33,728 nt of DNA from a virus: the IMG/VR virus record IMGVR_UViG_3300034375_005070, positions 1 through 33,728 of that record; one strand, 5' to 3'. Positions 2,118 through 15,277 of the stretch are shown piece after piece. The notes below the pieces were generated by a model. It searched no databases and was not told the DNA's origin. It saw only the letters and a program-made list of their open reading frames with translations. A program made the translations under genes and the position numbers. Position 1 is the stretch's first letter. Each line of letters begins with the position of its first letter.

Positions 2118-2332
2118 AATACACAACGTTGCAAATAGAGGTTGGGACTCCAAGAATGGAAGACGGTGTTGTCGTAAGCACCATGTTTATCATTGATGAC
2201 AGCATTCGAATACTGGATGAATACCTAGCCAATATGTTTTCACAAAACTATTTTCAATATATTGTAACACTGGACGGCGTACCGCTCTGTTGGAACCTGA
2301 CTGCAACTGGAAGCACATGGAGTATCAAATGA
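2114..2332 (+). CDS. Small hypothetical early protein
   Basis: The 72-residue product has alternating hydrophobic strands (TLQIEV, VVVSTMFIID, YIVTLDG) suggesting a small beta-rich fold with one helix near residues 30-45. It is locked in the operon by ATGA overlaps at both ends. The next start (2329) lies inside its last codons. No family is recognised. Confidence 0.65.
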   Translation: MKYTTLQIEVGTPRMEDGVVVSTMFIIDDSIRILDEYLANMFSQNYFQYIVTLDGVPLCWNLTATGSTWSIK

Positions 2333-3039
2333 TTTTACTTACACTTATATCCTCTAGACAAAAGACTATGGTCAACCTGTCGAGTATGCTATACACTGCA
2401 CCAAACAAGTTGGGTACTGAGATTGTCTACGACAAGGGACGTGTCGCTGTTATAGAGACATCAGAGGAGATATACAAGCTTTGGCACGAATCTTGCACTA
2501 ATAGTACTAATAGTACTAATAGTACTAATATAGCTGTTGATAATAAAAATAATAATTCTATTAACAACTCTAATAGTGATAGTATTGGTGATGGTTATGT
2601 ACTGGTTGTCAATGACATGCCTATTCCAGTTGACCCGTCAATAAAACCAAAACTGTGGAGCTACTGTAAAACCAATGAAGAACTGATAGGTCTGTTCGGG
2701 TATTGGATGAAGCTGTACGAGGACCATGGGGGTGAGGTTAACATAGTTAGCAGCATTGACCTTGGTACACTAGCCAAGGTGATTAGAACTGGAGCGACTG
2801 ACAAAGCCAAGGCTGTGTTCGACTGGTTGTTTTCAAGTGACCACTACCGTGCTGTCTACCTTAGAAGCAAAGGCATGGTCAATCCAGCCGTGGTGGTGTC
2901 TACAAGAAAGCTGGACGCAAACTATGCACTGGCGCAACAGAAACCCCTACCTGCACTGCCACAGTCCGTTCAGCGTCCATCCATGGCGATTCCATCATTT
3001 GACGAAAACGGTAACATTGTTGGAGGTAACCATGGCTAA
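2329..3039 (+). CDS. Putative phage replication initiator (lambda O-like position) with internal origin
   Basis: The start ATG at 2329 overlaps the preceding stop (ATGA) and has GGAG six bases upstream; an upstream TTG start is less likely. Of 236 residues, about 1-55 resemble the small FlbD-type fold (MILLT, then VNLSSM, then VAVIETSEEI). An Asn/Ser-rich linker (about 57-85, with three NST units) follows. The C-terminal part (about 95-200) resembles the C-terminal regions of phage replisome organisers, with helical segments ending in KAVFDWLFSSDHYRAVYL and RKLDANYAL. It directly precedes a helicase-loader-like gene, the order seen in lambda O-P and SPP1 38-39. The linker is encoded by DNA iterons. 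The initiator role is inferred from this context. Confidence 0.6.
   Translation: MILLTLISSRQKTMVNLSSMLYTAPNKLGTEIVYDKGRVAVIETSEEIYKLWHESCTNSTNSTNSTNIAVDNKNNNSINNSNSDSIGDGYVLVVNDMPIPVDPSIKPKLWSYCKTNEELIGLFGYWMKLYEDHGGEVNIVSSIDLGTLAKVIRTGATDKAKAVFDWLFSSDHYRAVYLRSKGMVNPAVVVSTRKLDANYALAQQKPLPALPQSVQRPSMAIPSFDENGNIVGGNHG
2497..2590 (+). repeat. Candidate replication origin: 9-bp iterons plus AT-rich segment
   Basis: ACTAATAGT occurs three times in perfect tandem (2497-2523), followed by a partial fourth copy and a degenerate copy at about 2569-2577. Each unit is itself a dyad (ACTA-A-TAGT). The following roughly 60 bases are strongly A+T-rich. The array lies in the linker-coding part of the putative initiator gene, the same plan as the lambda origin inside gene O. 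A coding-only explanation (an Asn-Ser-Thr linker) is the alternative, but perfect synonymous repetition favours selection on the DNA. Confidence 0.55.
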
Positions 3040-3757
3040 TCCACACATGATAAACATTGCACTCGATATGTTTGCAGCAACGTTCAACAAGAAAGATGAT
3101 TGGAAGCAGCAGTCATTCTCAGTTTGGGAACATGGACTGGAGAAGGTCAAAGACGTACACCTGCACAAAGCAATCCTAAACATCTGCATGAAGAAGCACC
3201 AATACCCACCCACATTGGGACATGTTCTTGAAGAGGTCAAGGATGTTATTCGTGAACTTGGTGGCACTGGTGTGTCCATCAAAGAATACCACTTCTGTGA
3301 TGACTGCTTGCAACGTGAGGGAATACGTGAGGTGAGCGCACACTTCATTGTCATCAAAGAAAAGAAGCAAAGGATACACAACTGTGTAGCACGTTGCACC
3401 TGTGAAGGGGCAAGTCAAAAGTATCCAGTAATGGGTACGTGGGAAGCACTACAAACTCGCATGATGAACGATGCACGTATAACACTCACAAACTGGCACA
3501 TGTCAGATGGAAGGCAGCCAGTGTTACTCATGCAACAACGACAACCACAGCATTACGAGCGCATGCGCCGTGTACAAGCTGAACGAGAAAAGGAAGGAAG
3601 GATTAACCCATGGGCAAAGGTCGCTCAGGATATGATTGATGGTCGATACGTACCTGATGAAAATCCTATTCCAATGACAAAACCTATTGACAAACCACAG
3701 AGAAAACACTATAATCATTCACATACAAACATCGGTCCCGATGACTGTATATTTTAA
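3032..3757 (+). CDS. Helicase loader-like replication protein
   Basis: The 241-residue product starts at ATG 3032, with GGAGGT five bases upstream and an 8-base overlap with the initiator gene; a longer upstream frame is rejected. Residues about 5-70 resemble the N-terminal helical domain of phage helicase loaders such as SPP1 G39P. Landmarks are a Trp in a WEHGL segment, then alternating helices ending in YPPTLGHVLEEVK. A Cys-rich middle (CDDC near residue 89, CVARCTC near 122) probably binds zinc. The tail is basic and Gln/Arg-rich. Such proteins load the host DnaB-type helicase at the origin. No helicase gene is in the window, which fits use of the host enzyme. Confidence 0.55.
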   Translation: MANPHMINIALDMFAATFNKKDDWKQQSFSVWEHGLEKVKDVHLHKAILNICMKKHQYPPTLGHVLEEVKDVIRELGGTGVSIKEYHFCDDCLQREGIREVSAHFIVIKEKKQRIHNCVARCTCEGASQKYPVMGTWEALQTRMMNDARITLTNWHMSDGRQPVLLMQQRQPQHYERMRRVQAEREKEGRINPWAKVAQDMIDGRYVPDENPIPMTKPIDKPQRKHYNHSHTNIGPDDCIF

Positions 3758-3782: not shown

Positions 3783-4265
3783 ATGTTCTTCTTAGAACAA
3801 CTACAATATGTCATCGATAAGGTCGTTGACAATGCAACAAAATCAACCCTGCAAAAAGCACATACCATACTGGTTGCGATTGATTCATTGAGTCCTCTGA
3901 ATGAAATGATTGAAGAATGGTACAGCGAACAAGCAGACGACAAAGATGTTGTCCCATATACTGAGCAGTGGCGACAGCTACAAATCAGCATGGACAAATA
4001 CCGTTCTGAACTGGAGCGACTTGGATGGTTGCACTGTCCAGAAACCACACCACCAAACTTTAACGGTGAGCGTGGATGGATGCACCCATTCTATTCACAA
4101 CGTGGACACCACCACATTCTATACATTTCAAATGATGTCAATGACATACCTTATTTGGATGTAACTTTATACCTTAAAACCGAAATGAAATACCACGAAA
4201 ACCTATCTGTCGGTGCACTTATGGACTGGATGGATGGAGCATTAGGAGAAAACCATGCAGAATAA
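3783..4265 (+). CDS. Hypothetical early protein
   Basis: This 160-residue acidic protein has a helical N-terminal half (MFFLEQLQYVIDKVVDN onward) and a mixed second half with a His cluster (RGHHHILYI). GGAG lies six bases before ATG, and the third rightward copy of the AACCTACCA leader is at 3756-3764, marking a fresh translation start rather than coupling. Its end overlaps the ERF gene by 11 bases. It sits between the loader and the annealing protein, so a DNA-replication or recombination role is likely, but no motif shows it. Confidence 0.7.
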   Translation: MFFLEQLQYVIDKVVDNATKSTLQKAHTILVAIDSLSPLNEMIEEWYSEQADDKDVVPYTEQWRQLQISMDKYRSELERLGWLHCPETTPPNFNGERGWMHPFYSQRGHHHILYISNDVNDIPYLDVTLYLKTEMKYHENLSVGALMDWMDGALGENHAE

Positions 4266-4827
4266 TAGTACAATATACCAAGCAATACTTCAGTTTCAAA
4301 AGAACAGCGGTGCTGTCATCATGTCAGCCGTTAACCCCCGATTCAAATCAAAGTACGCCAGCTTGACTGACATACAGAAAGCCATTCGCAAACCACTAGC
4401 CGATGCTGGTCTGGTTATCGTACACCAACTGGGTGAGAATAACACGATGACCTCATCGCTTATTCATGCTGAGACTGGACAGTCCATCTCCAGCACGTAC
4501 AACCTTATCGTACAACGCAATGATATGCAGGCACTTGGTTCTGCTATCACCTATGCCAAACGTTATGCTGTAGCAGCTCTACTAGACATTGTGACTGACA
4601 TTGACGATGACGGCAACAAAGCAGTAGACAGTATGGAAGGCAACAGGTCTGCTTCTAAATACGACGATGATGACAAGCCATGGTTCAGTGAGAAGCTACC
4701 GAACTATGAAGAGGTATGCCACTGGGTTGCCAGAGGTAATGACCCCAAGAAGCTAAGAGACAAGTACAAAGTCTCACGTTCAACAATGTCATACTTAGAG
4801 AAACTACACAACACTGTCAAAAATTAA
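4255..4827 (+). CDS. erf: ERF-family single-strand annealing recombinase
   Basis: The 190-residue protein shows the ERF signature through its first 130 residues: the NPRFKSKYASLTDIQKAI segment, then PLADAGLVIVHQL, then GSAITYAKRYAVAALLDI and the acidic DIDDDGNKA. ERF proteins (P22 Erf, Sak relatives) anneal complementary single strands for phage recombination and genome circularisation. The C-terminal 60 residues are acidic, then basic, and variable, as usual in the family. GGAG lies seven bases before ATG. It overlaps the preceding gene and forms part of the replication block. This is the most secure functional call in the early region. Confidence 0.92.
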   Translation: MQNNSTIYQAILQFQKNSGAVIMSAVNPRFKSKYASLTDIQKAIRKPLADAGLVIVHQLGENNTMTSSLIHAETGQSISSTYNLIVQRNDMQALGSAITYAKRYAVAALLDIVTDIDDDGNKAVDSMEGNRSASKYDDDDKPWFSEKLPNYEEVCHWVARGNDPKKLRDKYKVSRSTMSYLEKLHNTVKN

Positions 4828-4839
4828 TATGGAGGTTGT

Positions 4840-5055
4840 ATGTTTTCAATACAACTTAAAGAAACGTTATCTACTGTTAACAAGTCTGCACTGGCAACTG
4901 CTATTGGTTGCCATCGTGACACGGTTGCCAAATGGCTACAAGGCAAACAGGTTCCTTCAGTAGCGTACCTCATGCGAATGTGTATTTACTTGTACCCAAC
5001 AGAGTGGGAGAAAGCGTTCTTACACTTTGCTGTATTGATAGAAGCAGATAAATGA
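4840..5055 (+). CDS. Short helix-turn-helix protein
   Basis: The 71-residue protein is essentially a single helix-turn-helix domain: NKSALATAIGCHRDTVAKWLQG gives helices 2-3 and the turn, and QVPSVAYLMRM forms helix 4. GGAGG lies five bases before ATG. It is the last gene before the terminator at 5093-5119. It resembles the products of 5137-5433 and 29969-30283 in the order of helices and a WLxGxxxP-like loop. It probably binds DNA as a dimer, as a regulator of early or late promoters. Confidence 0.75.
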   Translation: MFSIQLKETLSTVNKSALATAIGCHRDTVAKWLQGKQVPSVAYLMRMCIYLYPTEWEKAFLHFAVLIEADK

Positions 5056-5136: not shown

Positions 5137-5433
5137 ATGATTAAAGGGTTTGGTAAATGGCTAAACAAAGCAATGCACCGCAACTCAATCAGCACAACGT
5201 ATATGGCTGACCAAGCAGGACTGCATGTCAACACCATAAACAAATACCTCAATGGAGCCTATGAGCCACGGATGAGCAACCTGATTGTGATTGTCACGGT
5301 CATCGCATTTAAAGAAAAGAGAAGCCCCACACAGCTAATGTTTGAAGCCATCACGTCGATGCATGAAATGAAAATGGTTGAAGCTAGGTGGCGACGGAAA
5401 ATAAAAAGGGATCCAGAGGCTGACCTGCCCTGA
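5137..5433 (+). CDS. Helix-turn-helix protein downstream of the early terminator
   Basis: From ATG 5137 the product has 98 residues. The helix-turn-helix is ISTTYMADQAGLHVNTINKYL, followed by an NGAYEPRMSNL loop and helix, the usual XRE-type arrangement. The C-terminal third is helical and basic. The start has only a weak G-rich Shine-Dalgarno, and the gene lies behind a terminator with no clear own promoter, so it would be expressed at low level by readthrough. Low-level expression would suit a repressor. It converges with the end of the late operon. Confidence 0.75.
   Translation: MIKGFGKWLNKAMHRNSISTTYMADQAGLHVNTINKYLNGAYEPRMSNLIVIVTVIAFKEKRSPTQLMFEAITSMHEMKMVEARWRRKIKRDPEADLP
5398..5430 (-). 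terminator. Possible terminator of the leftward late operon
   Basis: Read leftward, GGG and CAGG can pair with TCTG and CCC (with a three-base bulge) around a six-base loop, followed by a T-rich run TTTTTATTTT. It lies just beyond the last leftward gene, inside the 3' end of the convergent HTH gene. The stem is short and imperfect, so termination may be partial. Confidence 0.35.
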
Positions 5434-8538: not shown

Positions 8539-8960
8539 TATTCACTCCAAACAATCTGCGAGTAGTCAATCGTTATGTTTCCAGAACCATTTATTTTAAA
8601 GAACAAGTATACATCTGGATTGTCAAAATACGATTGAACTGGCAGCTTAAACTCATATGCAGCACTACCTGTTGTAGTTGTAGTTACACCTAATGCAATG
8701 GCACCTGCTGTATCTGGAAACCATACGTGGTCACCAGCAGCATCCCAAGTTCCTTTAAGGGTAAGACTGGTATTGCTACCACCCAGACCTGTACAACGCA
8801 CTATGATTGATTCAATACGACCAAGGAACTTACCAGATGTGTCGATTTGTTCAGGGATTGATAATGTATGTTTATGAAATTTAGCAGCATCAAAATTTTG
8901 GTCTACCGATGCAACGTTTGTATCGTTAATACTTGGATGGTCTATATGTCTAATGTTCAT
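8538..8960 (-). CDS. Minor tail/structural protein
   Basis: The 140-residue protein starts MNIRHIDHPSINDTNVASVD and continues as a probable beta-sandwich with Thr/Gly-rich strands ending in GNITIDYSQIVWSE. The short N-terminal segment resembles the anchors of other minor tail proteins here. Its ATG overlaps the stop of the giant virion gene (ATGA) and has GGAGG four bases upstream. Position before the fibre suggests a fibre-associated or baseplate role. No family is recognised. Confidence 0.65.
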   Translation of the reverse strand: MNIRHIDHPSINDTNVASVDQNFDAAKFHKHTLSIPEQIDTSGKFLGRIESIIVRCTGLGGSNTSLTLKGTWDAAGDHVWFPDTAGAIALGVTTTTTGSAAYEFKLPVQSYFDNPDVYLFFKINGSGNITIDYSQIVWSE

Positions 8961-11900
8961 TGTTCCTCCGATGGTTTATATAAAAGTTCTTGATCACGAT
9001 AAATAGCAGCTTCTGTCATGCCTTCCTCGCCGTTGATTATAGCACGTAGATAAGCTTCCCTGCGCTTTAAAGCTTCCAATTGTTGTTTGTCTTCTGTATC
9101 AACTTGTGAAAGAGTATATGCACCAGTAATCTGTCCTAGTATAAGTAGTCCACTAGAATCTCCACCAAGGGTACTTCCTTCTGGAGAAACGACTCTAGCT
9201 ATAGACCTCAATCTACTAGTCATGCCTAATGTATTTAACACCGTGTATAATGAGCGATGATACAACTGATACTGTTGTTCTTCTGATAGTGGATAAACAT
9301 AACCGTTGCGAACACCCTTTGCGCCTTTAGGACGTGCAGTAGGTACAATTCGTCCACCTGCCATACCTTCTAGTGCTGTTGCTATTTCTGATGGTGTTTT
9401 GTTACCAGCTAATTCCAAATAAAAGATTAACTCTGGCATGGCATTTGTAGGTGTGTATTTATCAATACTTTTTGGTTGTAACACTTCCTTTAAAAGAGGG
9501 TTTAAAAGTTGTATTGCAGGTTCAAATGTATTTAAATCCTTTGTTTCAACAAGGGGAAACAATGACATACCTGTGCCAACAAGCAAATTAACACTATCAA
9601 CTATAGGATTGCTGTAAGCCATTGCAAAAGTGACTTTGTCACCATATACACCCGTTGGCATTTTTATACGGTTTTGCGCATACTCTGGATAATACATGTC
9701 ATAAGGGAACTCCACACCACCATTTAAAGTTTGTAAAACTGTTTCAGTAGACTTTGTAAGGTCTACCGCTTTAGCCAGTTTTATTAACTTTGTTGGGTCA
9801 TGCATTGCAAAAAACACTTCTTTTGCAGCTTGTGTTATAAATGATGAAAACACAAACACTGCATTCATCATACGCTGAACATCTTCTGGTATGTCAGAAT
9901 AGTCAAACATTGAACGACGTGCTAGTTGCATAGCTTCATCAAATGACCTACCTTCCTGTAAAGCCTTAAGAGCAGCTGCACTTCTAAACACAAAGTCTTC
10001 TTTTGTCTGTGCTGCTAAAGCCAAAGTAGATGCGTCTCGCATTGTTTTCGTAATCTTTTGAAATCCGCGCTTATTAAATTCACCTTTATATCTGCTCTGA
10101 ACTTCTTTCACAAACATATTCTCTTTGCCACCCTTAGATTGAATGTAAGAAAACTGGTTTCGAACTCCTACTTTTTGTATGCCCTCATATATATCAGCAT
10201 TTGTATAGACCCTTCCATCTGGTGTGCGTACAGCTATTTTACCATAGCCTTCGCTTCCAATGTTACTGCCATACCTAACGACATCCCATCCCTTTGTGGC
10301 AAGTTCTGGTGTAAATATGACACCAGTAGTTTGATATATTATATTTGGACCAGACAGTATGTTACGCCCATGCGATGCTGGACTGTATCCTAGAATTGTA
10401 GTGTAAAAAGTTTGGTTAAATACGTCTATGATTTTGTTTACAATTGGTAGCAACTTACCGCCTTCAGCTCGCATTGCTTGTGCAATATTTTTTCGAACTT
10501 GTTGATTAGGCGTTTCTAGCAATTTTTTACGCATTGTTTCATAATCATCTGCGCCAAACAATGCTCTTGCCATACCTTCTTCACCACGAAACAAAGTATC
10601 AACCATATTTTCCAATGCTTCTAAGCTGCTTTCGCTTAAACTATAACTAATGTCATTGTTGCGCATAACAACTTCTGCTGCATCTTTTACAGCCTGCACT
10701 ACTATGTCTAAATCTTCTACATCAACAATGTTTTCTTCTAATGCATCGATTATATCATCAAAAGAAGCATCGTATGTTTCGGTCATTCGTTTCATGTATT
10801 GAAGCTTTTCTAATGGTGTCTGTAACATCGACAGTTGTACTTCAATCATTTTAAGTTGGTTCTCACCAATAGCTGAAGATAGTATATTATCTAATTCTTT
10901 TTCTTGTTCTTCTAACAAGTCTTGCTTTAACTTTTTTAATTGTTTATTACCCCTTTCTTTTAAAACCTTTAAATCACCTTCAAGTCTAGCTTGTAACTTT
11001 TTATCTAGTTTGTCTTTAAGATTTTGTACATCTTGATCAAACTTCTTTTCTATGTCTTTCAGTCTTTTACTTTTAGTGTAGCCACGCCCAAGCTCTTTTT
11101 CTAATAAACCTTTACGCCTTTTAAACTCCGCTCTTACTTCTCGAACCTGCTTCAGTGAATTAGCAGAACTTTTACCAAGACGGTTATGTAGTGCTTTTAT
11201 TTGCTTATCTCTAATTTTACGCAAGTTTAAAAGTCGTTTGTTGGTCTTTTCTGCTTTAGAAAGATTGTCTATTGCCTCAGACTTTTCTGTTTCCAATTTA
11301 TTTTCTTTTTCTAAAAACTCCTGATCTAACTCCTCTTTTACTGCGTCTCTTTTTTTCTTGTATTGTGCATTTAAAAACTGTCTGCGCTCAGAAAGTTCTC
11401 TTCTTACTTTTTGTCGCGAAACTCTTTTTGCATCTCTTAAATCTTTTTGTATTTTTACATCATACAATTTAGATTCTGCCTTAACTTCCCTGATTATAGC
11501 CTTGTCTAGTTTTTGCATATTTATTGCTGTCTCATAGCCTAAATACTTTTCTAAACGTTCTACAATATCAATCTGGCTTTGCAACTTAACTGATTCAGTT
11601 AACAGACTGTAGATTTCATCGTCTGTTTTTGGATAAAATAAAATGTTAATAGCATCCTTTACACTATTTTCGAACATTGATTGCGTAATATTGGCATCTG
11701 GTAAAACGTTTTTCACAGCTCCATCTGGAAACTCAAACTGCAACACGTCATTTAATGCTTTTGAACTTACACGATTGTTTTCAGCAACTAGATATGACGA
11801 AATCATAATAGTTGCGTGCATGTCATTCATAGACCTACTATTTATTGGTGGGACATTAGCACTGTTATAATTAGGGTTAACTATTTCTTTAGACAGAACC

Positions 11901-14900
11901 CTTGGTTTACCATTAGAATCTAGCAATACAACGCTTCTTGCCCTATCATAGGGCAGCTGTATAGCTTCGTTTATATTACGAACAACACCACTAAACAAAC
12001 TCCATAGCTTAGATGGGTCAACCATTATTTGTTCAGAAATTTTGCGCAGTTCTTGTTGAATATACATCTGCCCATGACTGTTAAATATGCCTGTTTTATA
12101 AGCATTATTAGCACCACTAACTTTATCTTCTAAGCTATACTTTGACGGTACTTTTTCACTTTTTGCAACAAATAAGTTATCAAGCATCCAAGTTAAAGTT
12201 TGTTCTAGGTTTACTTGTTGTTGTATCATACCTTTTAAGTCTGATCTTTCACCAACTATCATGTACCCAAGAGCACTTACGCTATCGACTCCTGCTGTAT
12301 CTGTTAGAAGTGGGTCGTATTTTGCTAATATGTTACCTTTGTTTTTCATTAAATTTTGATATAGCTCTTCTGCACGTATGTTTATTGTTCCACGCTCTGC
12401 ATTCATCCTTTGCAAGAATCTTTGCTGTTGAGTAGGCAATAAAGCTTCACTTTGAACTATCGGGGTATTTAAATACCTGTCTAATGATTTTCTACTAATT
12501 ATACCCTTATCACTAAAATACTTTGTAAGACGCTTGCCTAATACAGTAGTTGAAAGCTCTTTTACAAAATCTGATACATCAGCCACACTTCTATAAACTG
12601 TACCTTCTGCTTCTAATAATCTTGACCTTTGCTCAACACTTAATCTGTTTACATTTTCAATTGACAAAGTTTGTGGCTCAAGCTCTGCTACCTTATCAAT
12701 TATTGCATGCCTTAATCTGTTGTAGTCTTGTTGAAATAACAGCTTGTCATCTTTTATGTTTTTTAAAACTTCTTGTTTATATGTAGCAGGCAAAGATATG
12801 TCATTTATTAAATCTTCAAGTGCTTTTATTTGTTTGTCTTTTAATGAAAACAACAAAAATGCAGGCTCAGCAGTAGTTGGAAGTTTATAAAACTCTTCAT
12901 TAAATACATTAAAGCCCGGTGTTCTTGTATTTCTAGTTGCCAACTCCATATCGTCTGGCACTGATTTAATTATGTCGTTTAGAACCTCACCCATGTCGCT
13001 TTTTGCTGCTACAGCAAGCAACTTGTTTCTGAAGCTTTTATGTACCAATGTATTTGGTGTAACCCATTGTACTTTATCTAAGAACTTTGTGTCGGGTGCT
13101 AACTCAAACATCATGTTTCGCCCATATATTTTAGACAATGCTTTGCTAGCTTCAGTATGCCCTAAAGCCTTAACTTTATTTACGTCTGCCATATTGGCTT
13201 TTGGGTACATACGCTTTATTTGTGTTGGTGGTAACTGTGCATGTCCGATTTCCTGACGTACCGTTATTTGATGTAAAGCTCCCATTGTATCTTCATATTC
13301 GTCAAGCATTTTTTTGGTGACTGGGTTTGATTCAACCTGTCGATAGAAAGAATCAGGTCCACCTTTTGCTTCCATTTCAAGTACAACTTTATCATCAAAC
13401 ACTTCACTTATATTATCGCCATGCTTTTTCATATGGTTGTAATGCATGGTTCTACCTACATTATCACCCATTGACAACAACACATCACCACGTTCAAGTT
13501 TGGGTATGTCTACATCAAATCGTTTGGCTACTGTTCTAGTAGCATCTAACAACAAACTATTGTCTATTTCATGCGACATTGCAGAAGCAAACGCTCTTTT
13601 CGCTTCATTCAGGTTACTTGCACCATAGGCAGCCTTGTGCAATCTTCTACTTTGGTCAGCAGCTTTTAAACCCTTTAATGTTCCTGCTGCTATGTCAAAC
13701 GAGGGGTCCAATATATCAAAGACAAAATAAGCACCTACTGTACCATATTTAGTAAGACCTTCCATTTGCAGTTGTTCTGCCAAAGCTTGTCCTTCACCAA
13801 CAAAACCTTTATCTCTAGCTATATTGTCAGCAATAGCACCTATCAATCCATATCCTTGATATGCTGCTGGGCGTTCTTTTTCTCTTAGTCTTGTTGTTGC
13901 TAATGGGTCAAAGTATGAAACACCTTCTTCTAACTCTGGTATAATACCAGCTGCTTCTAACCCTTCAGCTAAAATACCTGCACCTGCCGAACCGTACTGT
14001 TCTAATGATGGAGTTGCTACGGCTGCAAATGCATTAAATGGTGACATAGCAGCTCGTATTACCCATCCAGTCGATGTTTCTGTTATACCACCCGTTGGAA
14101 TCGTATCACCTAAAATACCCTCTTTAGTGTACGTTTCAAGGTTGCCTAAAACCTGTTGACGCTTTTCTAAATCTGTTCGCCAATCTGGGTCACCTAATTC
14201 CTTATAAGCTCTTGCCCTTGCTACTGCTTCTCTAGCACTTTTATTTTCTGTTATGTTTATTGATGTACCAGTTTCATAATCCCCTGATTTTATTTTCTCT
14301 AGAATCTGTGTGTCTTTCTCTGGAGAATATATTACACCACCAGTAGGATGATCTTCTAAATATCGTTGCACTTCATCTGGTACATATTCATAAATGCCGG
14401 GCCCTAGTTTAAAAACATTACTCGAAAAAACGGTTCTTTTACGGTAGATTTCTGCTTGTTGTTGAGCAGCGTATGGATTTGTAGAGTCAAATTCTACTTG
14501 AGCTGGTGGTCTTTGTAACTCAATAATTTGTTTATTTATTTCTGGTGTGTATTTAAGTTGTTGTTGCTTTTTCATTAAGGCGTATTGTCGAGGACTATAA
14601 TTAGGCAAATCCTCACCAGCAGTCTTTTTCTTTTCAAACGCTTGACCAAGTAATTCTAATTCAGATGCATCTTCTATTTCTTTTGTTTGAATCCTAGGGT
14701 CAACTTGAGCTTCCGATGTTGTAGGAACATCTTGCATACTGTTAATAGTTTGGACTACCTCGTCGTATATTTGCTCTTCAGATAACTGTGGGTTCTGTGC
14801 TTTTATGTCATCATACATAAAAGTTGCCGCTTGTACGTTTGCTTGTCGGTCTGCCTGTGGTAGCTGTTCATAGTATTTGTCTAAGTCATTGATTAACTTG

Positions 14901-15277
14901 GATTTTATTGAAAATACTGTAGGCTGTTCAATGCTTGCTCTAGTTTGCCCAATAGTTTGTTGCGGAAACAATGAAGCAATTATAGGTTGAACTCCAGTGT
15001 AAGCAGTTTTAGATTCAAATGGTAATGCTGTTAATGATTGTTTACGTGTATCAAACGTACCAAAATGTTGACGCATCCCCTGACCCATCTCATTATACAT
15101 ACGGTCAAGTTCTGCTTGCTTTTCTTCAGGGCTTCTTACAGCACTTGTTTGATAAGCTAGCATTGCATTAGTAAGTTGCTCTTCATACTCCAATGACTTT
15201 GACATGAGGTCATACTGTGGGTCTGATAGCTTTACCCCAAACAATGTTTCAAATTCATCTTTGGTAAACTTTCCCAT
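8957..15277 (-). CDS. Giant internal virion / ejection protein (2106 residues)
   Basis: By far the longest gene. It is Gln/Lys/Glu-rich with few motifs. An unusually long charged coiled coil spans about residues 1265-1470. Several semi-hydrophobic helices occur, for example near 410-440 (SPFNAFAAVATPSLEQ) and about 1600-1830, including FNQTFYTTILGYSP and MMNAVFVFSSFITQ. Its place after the nozzle and minor tail genes and before the fibre, its size and its composition match the largest ejected internal proteins of podoviruses (T7 gp16 role: passage of DNA through the envelope). I see no peptidase or transglycosylase active site. The ejection role is inferred. The gene looks A+T-richer than the capsid-to-nozzle genes. 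Confidence 0.75.
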   Translation of the reverse strand: MGKFTKDEFETLFGVKLSDPQYDLMSKSLEYEEQLTNAMLAYQTSAVRSPEEKQAELDRMYNEMGQGMRQHFGTFDTRKQSLTALPFESKTAYTGVQPIIASLFPQQTIGQTRASIEQPTVFSIKSKLINDLDKYYEQLPQADRQANVQAATFMYDDIKAQNPQLSEEQIYDEVVQTINSMQDVPTTSEAQVDPRIQTKEIEDASELELLGQAFEKKKTAGEDLPNYSPRQYALMKKQQQLKYTPEINKQIIELQRPPAQVEFDSTNPYAAQQQAEIYRKRTVFSSNVFKLGPGIYEYVPDEVQRYLEDHPTGGVIYSPEKDTQILEKIKSGDYETGTSINITENKSAREAVARARAYKELGDPDWRTDLEKRQQVLGNLETYTKEGILGDTIPTGGITETSTGWVIRAAMSPFNAFAAVATPSLEQYGSAGAGILAEGLEAAGIIPELEEGVSYFDPLATTRLREKERPAAYQGYGLIGAIADNIARDKGFVGEGQALAEQLQMEGLTKYGTVGAYFVFDILDPSFDIAAGTLKGLKAADQSRRLHKAAYGASNLNEAKRAFASAMSHEIDNSLLLDATRTVAKRFDVDIPKLERGDVLLSMGDNVGRTMHYNHMKKHGDNISEVFDDKVVLEMEAKGGPDSFYRQVESNPVTKKMLDEYEDTMGALHQITVRQEIGHAQLPPTQIKRMYPKANMADVNKVKALGHTEASKALSKIYGRNMMFELAPDTKFLDKVQWVTPNTLVHKSFRNKLLAVAAKSDMGEVLNDIIKSVPDDMELATRNTRTPGFNVFNEEFYKLPTTAEPAFLLFSLKDKQIKALEDLINDISLPATYKQEVLKNIKDDKLLFQQDYNRLRHAIIDKVAELEPQTLSIENVNRLSVEQRSRLLEAEGTVYRSVADVSDFVKELSTTVLGKRLTKYFSDKGIISRKSLDRYLNTPIVQSEALLPTQQQRFLQRMNAERGTINIRAEELYQNLMKNKGNILAKYDPLLTDTAGVDSVSALGYMIVGERSDLKGMIQQQVNLEQTLTWMLDNLFVAKSEKVPSKYSLEDKVSGANNAYKTGIFNSHGQMYIQQELRKISEQIMVDPSKLWSLFSGVVRNINEAIQLPYDRARSVVLLDSNGKPRVLSKEIVNPNYNSANVPPINSRSMNDMHATIMISSYLVAENNRVSSKALNDVLQFEFPDGAVKNVLPDANITQSMFENSVKDAINILFYPKTDDEIYSLLTESVKLQSQIDIVERLEKYLGYETAINMQKLDKAIIREVKAESKLYDVKIQKDLRDAKRVSRQKVRRELSERRQFLNAQYKKKRDAVKEELDQEFLEKENKLETEKSEAIDNLSKAEKTNKRLLNLRKIRDKQIKALHNRLGKSSANSLKQVREVRAEFKRRKGLLEKELGRGYTKSKRLKDIEKKFDQDVQNLKDKLDKKLQARLEGDLKVLKERGNKQLKKLKQDLLEEQEKELDNILSSAIGENQLKMIEVQLSMLQTPLEKLQYMKRMTETYDASFDDIIDALEENIVDVEDLDIVVQAVKDAAEVVMRNNDISYSLSESSLEALENMVDTLFRGEEGMARALFGADDYETMRKKLLETPNQQVRKNIAQAMRAEGGKLLPIVNKIIDVFNQTFYTTILGYSPASHGRNILSGPNIIYQTTGVIFTPELATKGWDVVRYGSNIGSEGYGKIAVRTPDGRVYTNADIYEGIQKVGVRNQFSYIQSKGGKENMFVKEVQSRYKGEFNKRGFQKITKTMRDASTLALAAQTKEDFVFRSAAALKALQEGRSFDEAMQLARRSMFDYSDIPEDVQRMMNAVFVFSSFITQAAKEVFFAMHDPTKLIKLAKAVDLTKSTETVLQTLNGGVEFPYDMYYPEYAQNRIKMPTGVYGDKVTFAMAYSNPIVDSVNLLVGTGMSLFPLVETKDLNTFEPAIQLLNPLLKEVLQPKSIDKYTPTNAMPELIFYLELAGNKTPSEIATALEGMAGGRIVPTARPKGAKGVRNGYVYPLSEEQQYQLYHRSLYTVLNTLGMTSRLRSIARVVSPEGSTLGGDSSGLLILGQITGAYTLSQVDTEDKQQLEALKRREAYLRAIINGEEGMTEAAIYRDQELLYKPSEEQ

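Follow-up and report, generated by a model that had tools for sequence, protein, structure and literature searches.

Does a short array of tandem repeats, written inside a phage gene, mark the place where the phage genome begins to replicate? The locus that raises this question lies in G000, a 33,728-base linear record in IMG/VR, the whole of which is called the window here, within an open reading frame on the plus strand (2329-3039) that encodes a candidate replication initiator of 236 residues. An earlier note on this DNA had proposed an origin on the plan of phage lambda, in which iterons and an A+T-rich stretch sit inside the gene of the initiator that binds them.

The sequence features on which this proposal was built are confirmed. 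TRF reports a tandem repeat at 2497-2530 (period 9, 3.8 copies, 100% matches), consisting of three perfect ACTAATAGT units (2497-2505, 2506-2514 and 2515-2523) and a partial fourth, ACTAATA (2524-2530). Each unit contains a dyad, ACTA-A-TAGT, with 4-bp arms. The motif ACTAWTAGT has three matches in the window when 0.39 are expected, a count reached in none of 100 shuffles of the window, and the array is its sole site there. The density of half-sites also peaks in the cluster at 2497, with 8 per 100 bp as against 4 for the runner-up. The array runs into an A+T-rich tract (2508-2590), a candidate unwinding element as judged by A+T composition alone: in a scan of 60-mers, 2508-2567 is 83% A+T, the highest value of the 33.7-kb record, tied with the 60-mer at 443. 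Both the array, which is in frame, and this A+T maximum fall within the linker-coding part of the 236-codon reading frame; neither element is assigned a strand.

The case for a function of this DNA comes from relatives. The 236-residue protein has 15 distinct homologues in IMG/VR, 51-72% identical over the blastp match, many of them on contigs that are fragments. The array motif is preserved letter for letter in distant relatives, beyond the needs of the encoded protein. Synonymous divergence of the array where the peptide is kept, which the earlier note had named as the outcome that would refute its reading, is the opposite of what we see: given the same residue, codons are identical in 95.5% of cases in the array (1067/1117, all pairs among 15 sequences), as against 64.8% in the N-terminal and 58.4% in the C-terminal part. 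Since these pairs are not independent, single comparisons matter. Between the window and L024, all 12 array codons are identical, compared with 43 of 90 in the flanking domains (P=0.0004); for L022, the figures are 9 of 9 and 44 of 90 (P=0.003), these two being the most distant relatives compared with the window. A sliding scan placed the most synonymously constrained stretch of this gene and the next one at the array. When the peptide was held and codons were drawn according to the codon usage of the gene, the observed count of ACTA/TAGT half-sites was matched in none of 2000 draws for 15 of the 16 linkers. Most linkers also exceeded a null built from A/T-ending codons, L005 not clearly so; by one or more measures, L005, L022 and L024 have motif counts only slightly higher than the A/T-rich-codon null gives.

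Three relatives (L003, L005 and L014) have changed the peptide itself, which reads NILVSNST instead of NSTNSTN. Exact ACTAWTAGT is absent from them, and their DNA retains a sequence resembling it, ACTAATATACTAGTATCTAATAGTACTAATATAG (L005 differs at a single base), with the site in another frame, which bears out the suggestion that the NST linker is a by-product of the DNA. Across ten records, ACTAWTAGT is found at the array locus and at one site elsewhere. In all six relatives checked, A+T content along the gene peaks in the linker; the part that follows the array is C-rich/G-rich and not strongly A+T-rich in most relatives, and is replaced in the window. From these sequence comparisons, we consider it well supported that the DNA of the array itself is under selection.

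We weighed several other explanations of the array. One dispenses with any role for the DNA and sees a low-complexity Asn/Ser/Thr linker whose coding sequence owes its uniformity to replication slippage and A/T-ending codons. Such codons do raise the expected half-site count, low complexity is common in linkers, and among relatives the array differs in copy number. We nevertheless hold this explanation to be quite improbable: serine is written AGT in 78 of 86 linker codons and in only 26 of 220 elsewhere, despite TCT and TCA being equally A+T-rich; codon identity holds between members that agree at only ~48% of other synonymous sites; and the three members with a changed peptide carry their motif out of frame. 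Nucleotide constraint alone leaves the binding protein unspecified, however, and the array could be a selected site with another role, such as an operator for a Cro/C1-type HTH protein, a site for partition or packaging, or an element controlling the downstream gene. HTH proteins are encoded nearby (1246-1668, 4840-5055 and 5137-5433), and we regard a role of this kind as unlikely but a serious possibility. A dispersed operator is disfavoured because the motif occupies one locus, with a single further occurrence in ten records; unlike such operators, it is missing from the early promoter region, which has a conserved palindrome of its own, TATACAGTTCAACTGTATA, at 506-524. This palindrome is perfect with an odd centre, its core is preserved in L012/G005 and L016, and it is likely to be an operator. 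The position of the array in an initiator-type gene, beside an A+T maximum, is in turn what an origin predicts.

The early promoter region is also where a competing origin might be sought. Two 18-bp direct repeats, GACATTGGAGTGA (in fuller form GACATTGGAGTGA(C/G)TTTT-like), lie at 400-435, a short way before the early promoter (-35 box TTGACA near 473), and an A+T tract follows them at 443-466. The repeat pair may be a conserved early control site or a rival origin, and is a live alternative: it recurs as a conserved feature in front of the early genes of several relatives, with related (G/T)ACATTGGAG(T/C)G copies in L005, L006, L008, L011, L012, L016 and L018, most of them paired 16-18 nt apart, and the 60-mer at 443 shares the A+T maximum with that at 2508. 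That the true origin lies here and the in-gene array does something else is very unlikely in our estimate, given that there are just two repeat copies, that they stand ~40-75 bp upstream of the -35 box, as one would expect of an activator site, and that an intergenic origin leaves the in-gene constraint unexplained. A role at the RNA level, in which a structure of the early mRNA would control translation of the downstream gene, seems extremely improbable. RNA of the linker region folded well in all three relatives examined (z -3.5 to -4.4), in part through a 10-15 bp stem after the array that pairs ACC/AAC codons with GGT/GTT codons ~30-50 nt later and is found in most relatives (L001, L002, L008, L014, L018, L022, L024 and others). 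This stem is absent from the window, whose RNA folds no better than shuffles (z -0.85); arm swapping revealed no covariation, the arms pairing equally well with those of other members (P=0.94); and the constrained array falls outside it. The hairpin was accordingly rejected as a candidate element. We also rejected a DnaA-driven origin: the search returned no conserved DnaA boxes or DnaA-trio-like repeats, and neither the window nor most relatives have an exact box close to the array.

If the array is an origin, the protein that it is written into would be expected to be the initiator. This protein comprises an N-terminal domain (residues ~1-53), the Asn/Ser/Thr linker (56-90) and a C-terminal helical domain (~91-205). 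It has no family match in Pfam, PHROG or PDB and no detectable similarity to the initiator families searched, and no homologue was found in INPHARED (50,697 phage records) or in GTDB genome contigs. Foldseek searches of PDB and viral structures yielded nothing at E <= 0.001; among the viral structures, weak hits include replication-initiation/membrane-attachment proteins (E >= 0.62) and, at E 0.11, a phage C-terminal domain protein. AlphaFold runs with 8 and 13 sequences, taken over this protein and that of the next gene, gave poor models, and the N-terminus of the candidate initiator, with a pLDDT of ~27, was unusable. The earlier note had envisaged an FlbD-like N-terminal fold as a new type of origin-binding domain, a claim that our results do not support. 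Co-linear matches to PF06289 (FlbD) from residue 1 occur in only two of 15 members, L022 (18.2 bits) and L024 (17.1 bits), both below the curated cut-off of 24.7, and neither the window protein nor the other members match this family. Because the matches in two members are sub-threshold, the window has none and the N-terminal model is unusable, an FlbD-type origin-binding domain is speculation. To our knowledge, FlbD has no known role as an origin binder.

The next gene (3032-3757, plus strand), whose start overlaps the end of the candidate initiator gene, encodes 241 residues, and all 12 relatives whose sequence extends that far have it downstream of the candidate initiator. It had been described as helicase-loader-like; a conserved second gene is indeed present, while the loader label finds little support from the tools used. 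The 241-residue protein has no family or fold match, including to the helicase-loader families in Pfam, its AlphaFold model was too poor for use, and a search of viral contigs with this protein alone confirmed no relatives. We propose it as a candidate helicase loader from its position and the organisation of the locus alone.

Genome context is consistent with a need for such proteins. Early genes run rightward and structural genes leftward in the window. Three related genomes (G002, G003 and G005) share its gene order in circularly permuted form, and genes from the two ends of the window are less than 1 kb apart in G005; the window is therefore near a whole genome of ~35 kb, and these comparisons indicate a genome that is circular or circularly permuted. 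DnaB_C, PolA and integrase had no match in ten records, some of them fragments. A phage of this kind would rely on the host replisome, and would need an initiator as well as, probably, a loader for the helicase. The early operon also varies in content: next to the conserved gene pair, an ERF-type single-strand annealing protein (4255-4827) is encoded, among relatives with sequence there, only in the window and L012 (94% identity), and its gene is a mosaic replacement within the operon. Among the late genes, a giant protein of 2106 residues (8957-15277) is 61% identical in G005 and ~25% identical in G002 and G003, unlike most other late genes, which are 58-95% identical.

The likeness to lambda that had been noted stands at the level of layout, which matches both the lambda origin in gene O and oriL of SPP1 in gene 38. 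In both lambda and the window, iterons and then an A+T-rich tract are embedded midway along the gene (O in lambda, the candidate initiator here), with order and orientation shared, and an overlapping second gene (P in lambda) lies directly downstream. Lambda replicates with the host replicative helicase (PMC3985674; PMC7466680), which is comparable to the lack of a DnaB or PolA match in these phages. The details differ: lambda iterons are 18-19 bp long and 20-24 bp apart, whereas the unit here is 9 bp without spacers; O has 299 residues compared with 236; and hhalign gives probabilities of 0.3% for the candidate initiator against O and 0.2% for the downstream protein against P. There is precedent for origin DNA dictating a linker, because lambdoid phages with extra iterons have extra linker residues, as in Stx phages, where two extra iterons correspond to 13 added residues in O (PMC7466680). 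Relatives of lambda O, tried as a positive control for the test of codon constraint, were uninformative because the retrieved phages differ in their iterons and are nearly identical in the C-terminal half; among these relatives, the Turner and PhiR5_1 phages have a repeated LPxSGK linker peptide.

Bacillus phage SPP1, compared here by its published description, offers a second parallel: oriL, with direct repeats and an A+T-rich unwinding element, lies inside gene 38, which encodes a 256-residue origin-binding protein and is followed by the overlapping loader gene 39, with gp40 as helicase (PMC6316719). The repeats and A+T-rich element in the gene and the overlapping gene next to it are as in the window; SPP1 differs in having the gp40 helicase, none being matched here, and the downstream protein here has no Pfam helicase-loader match. 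Phage P1 offers a third parallel, its oriL having been located inside repL, where replication is lowered by synonymous changes to an A+T-rich stretch (PMC9948254). P1 resembles our case in an origin postulated inside an initiator gene and constrained at the nucleotide level, and differs in the protein and in its key element, an A+T-rich region rather than iterons like these.

We conclude that the array and the A+T-rich tract probably form the replication origin of this phage, embedded in the coding sequence of the initiator and in the manner of lambda and SPP1, with a probability that we put at roughly 0.6. Because the array DNA is conserved more strictly than the protein requires, it is most likely where replication starts. 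The lambda plan as first proposed is supported in part, by the DNA-level constraint, the single locus per genome, the adjoining A+T maximum and the conserved second gene; its FlbD-like domain is not supported. GC skew, which had been suggested as a check, does not mark the array and is uninformative because it is confounded by gene strand. Several observations count against an origin at the array: the absence of similarity of the two proteins to lambda O and P or to initiator and loader families, the 9-bp unit, the half-site spacing that varies among relatives, the rival repeats at 400-466, the three relatives without the exact motif, and the part after the array that is often not strongly A+T-rich.

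Were the array the origin, the 236-residue protein, or its dimer, would bind the tandem dyads at their ACTA/TAGT half-sites, and the bound complex would strain and open the adjoining A+T-rich tract. The downstream gene product would then recruit to this opening a DnaB-type helicase of the host, and the host replisome would copy the circularised genome. The Asn/Ser/Thr linker would be largely incidental coding of origin DNA. A more specific scenario, in which an unrelated initiator-loader pair independently reached the lambda/SPP1 layout, with a 6-bp ACTAAT-type half-site, variable spacing, a linker freely rewritten by origin DNA and an FlbD-like small barrel that binds the origin, strikes us as distinctly doubtful.

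If an origin at the array is correct, an origin and an initiator gene would be assigned to an uncultured phage group without a match in the phage collection searched. The locus would provide another example of an origin written inside an initiator gene, apparently with unrelated proteins, and codon-level constraint in metagenomic relatives could reveal origins without culture.
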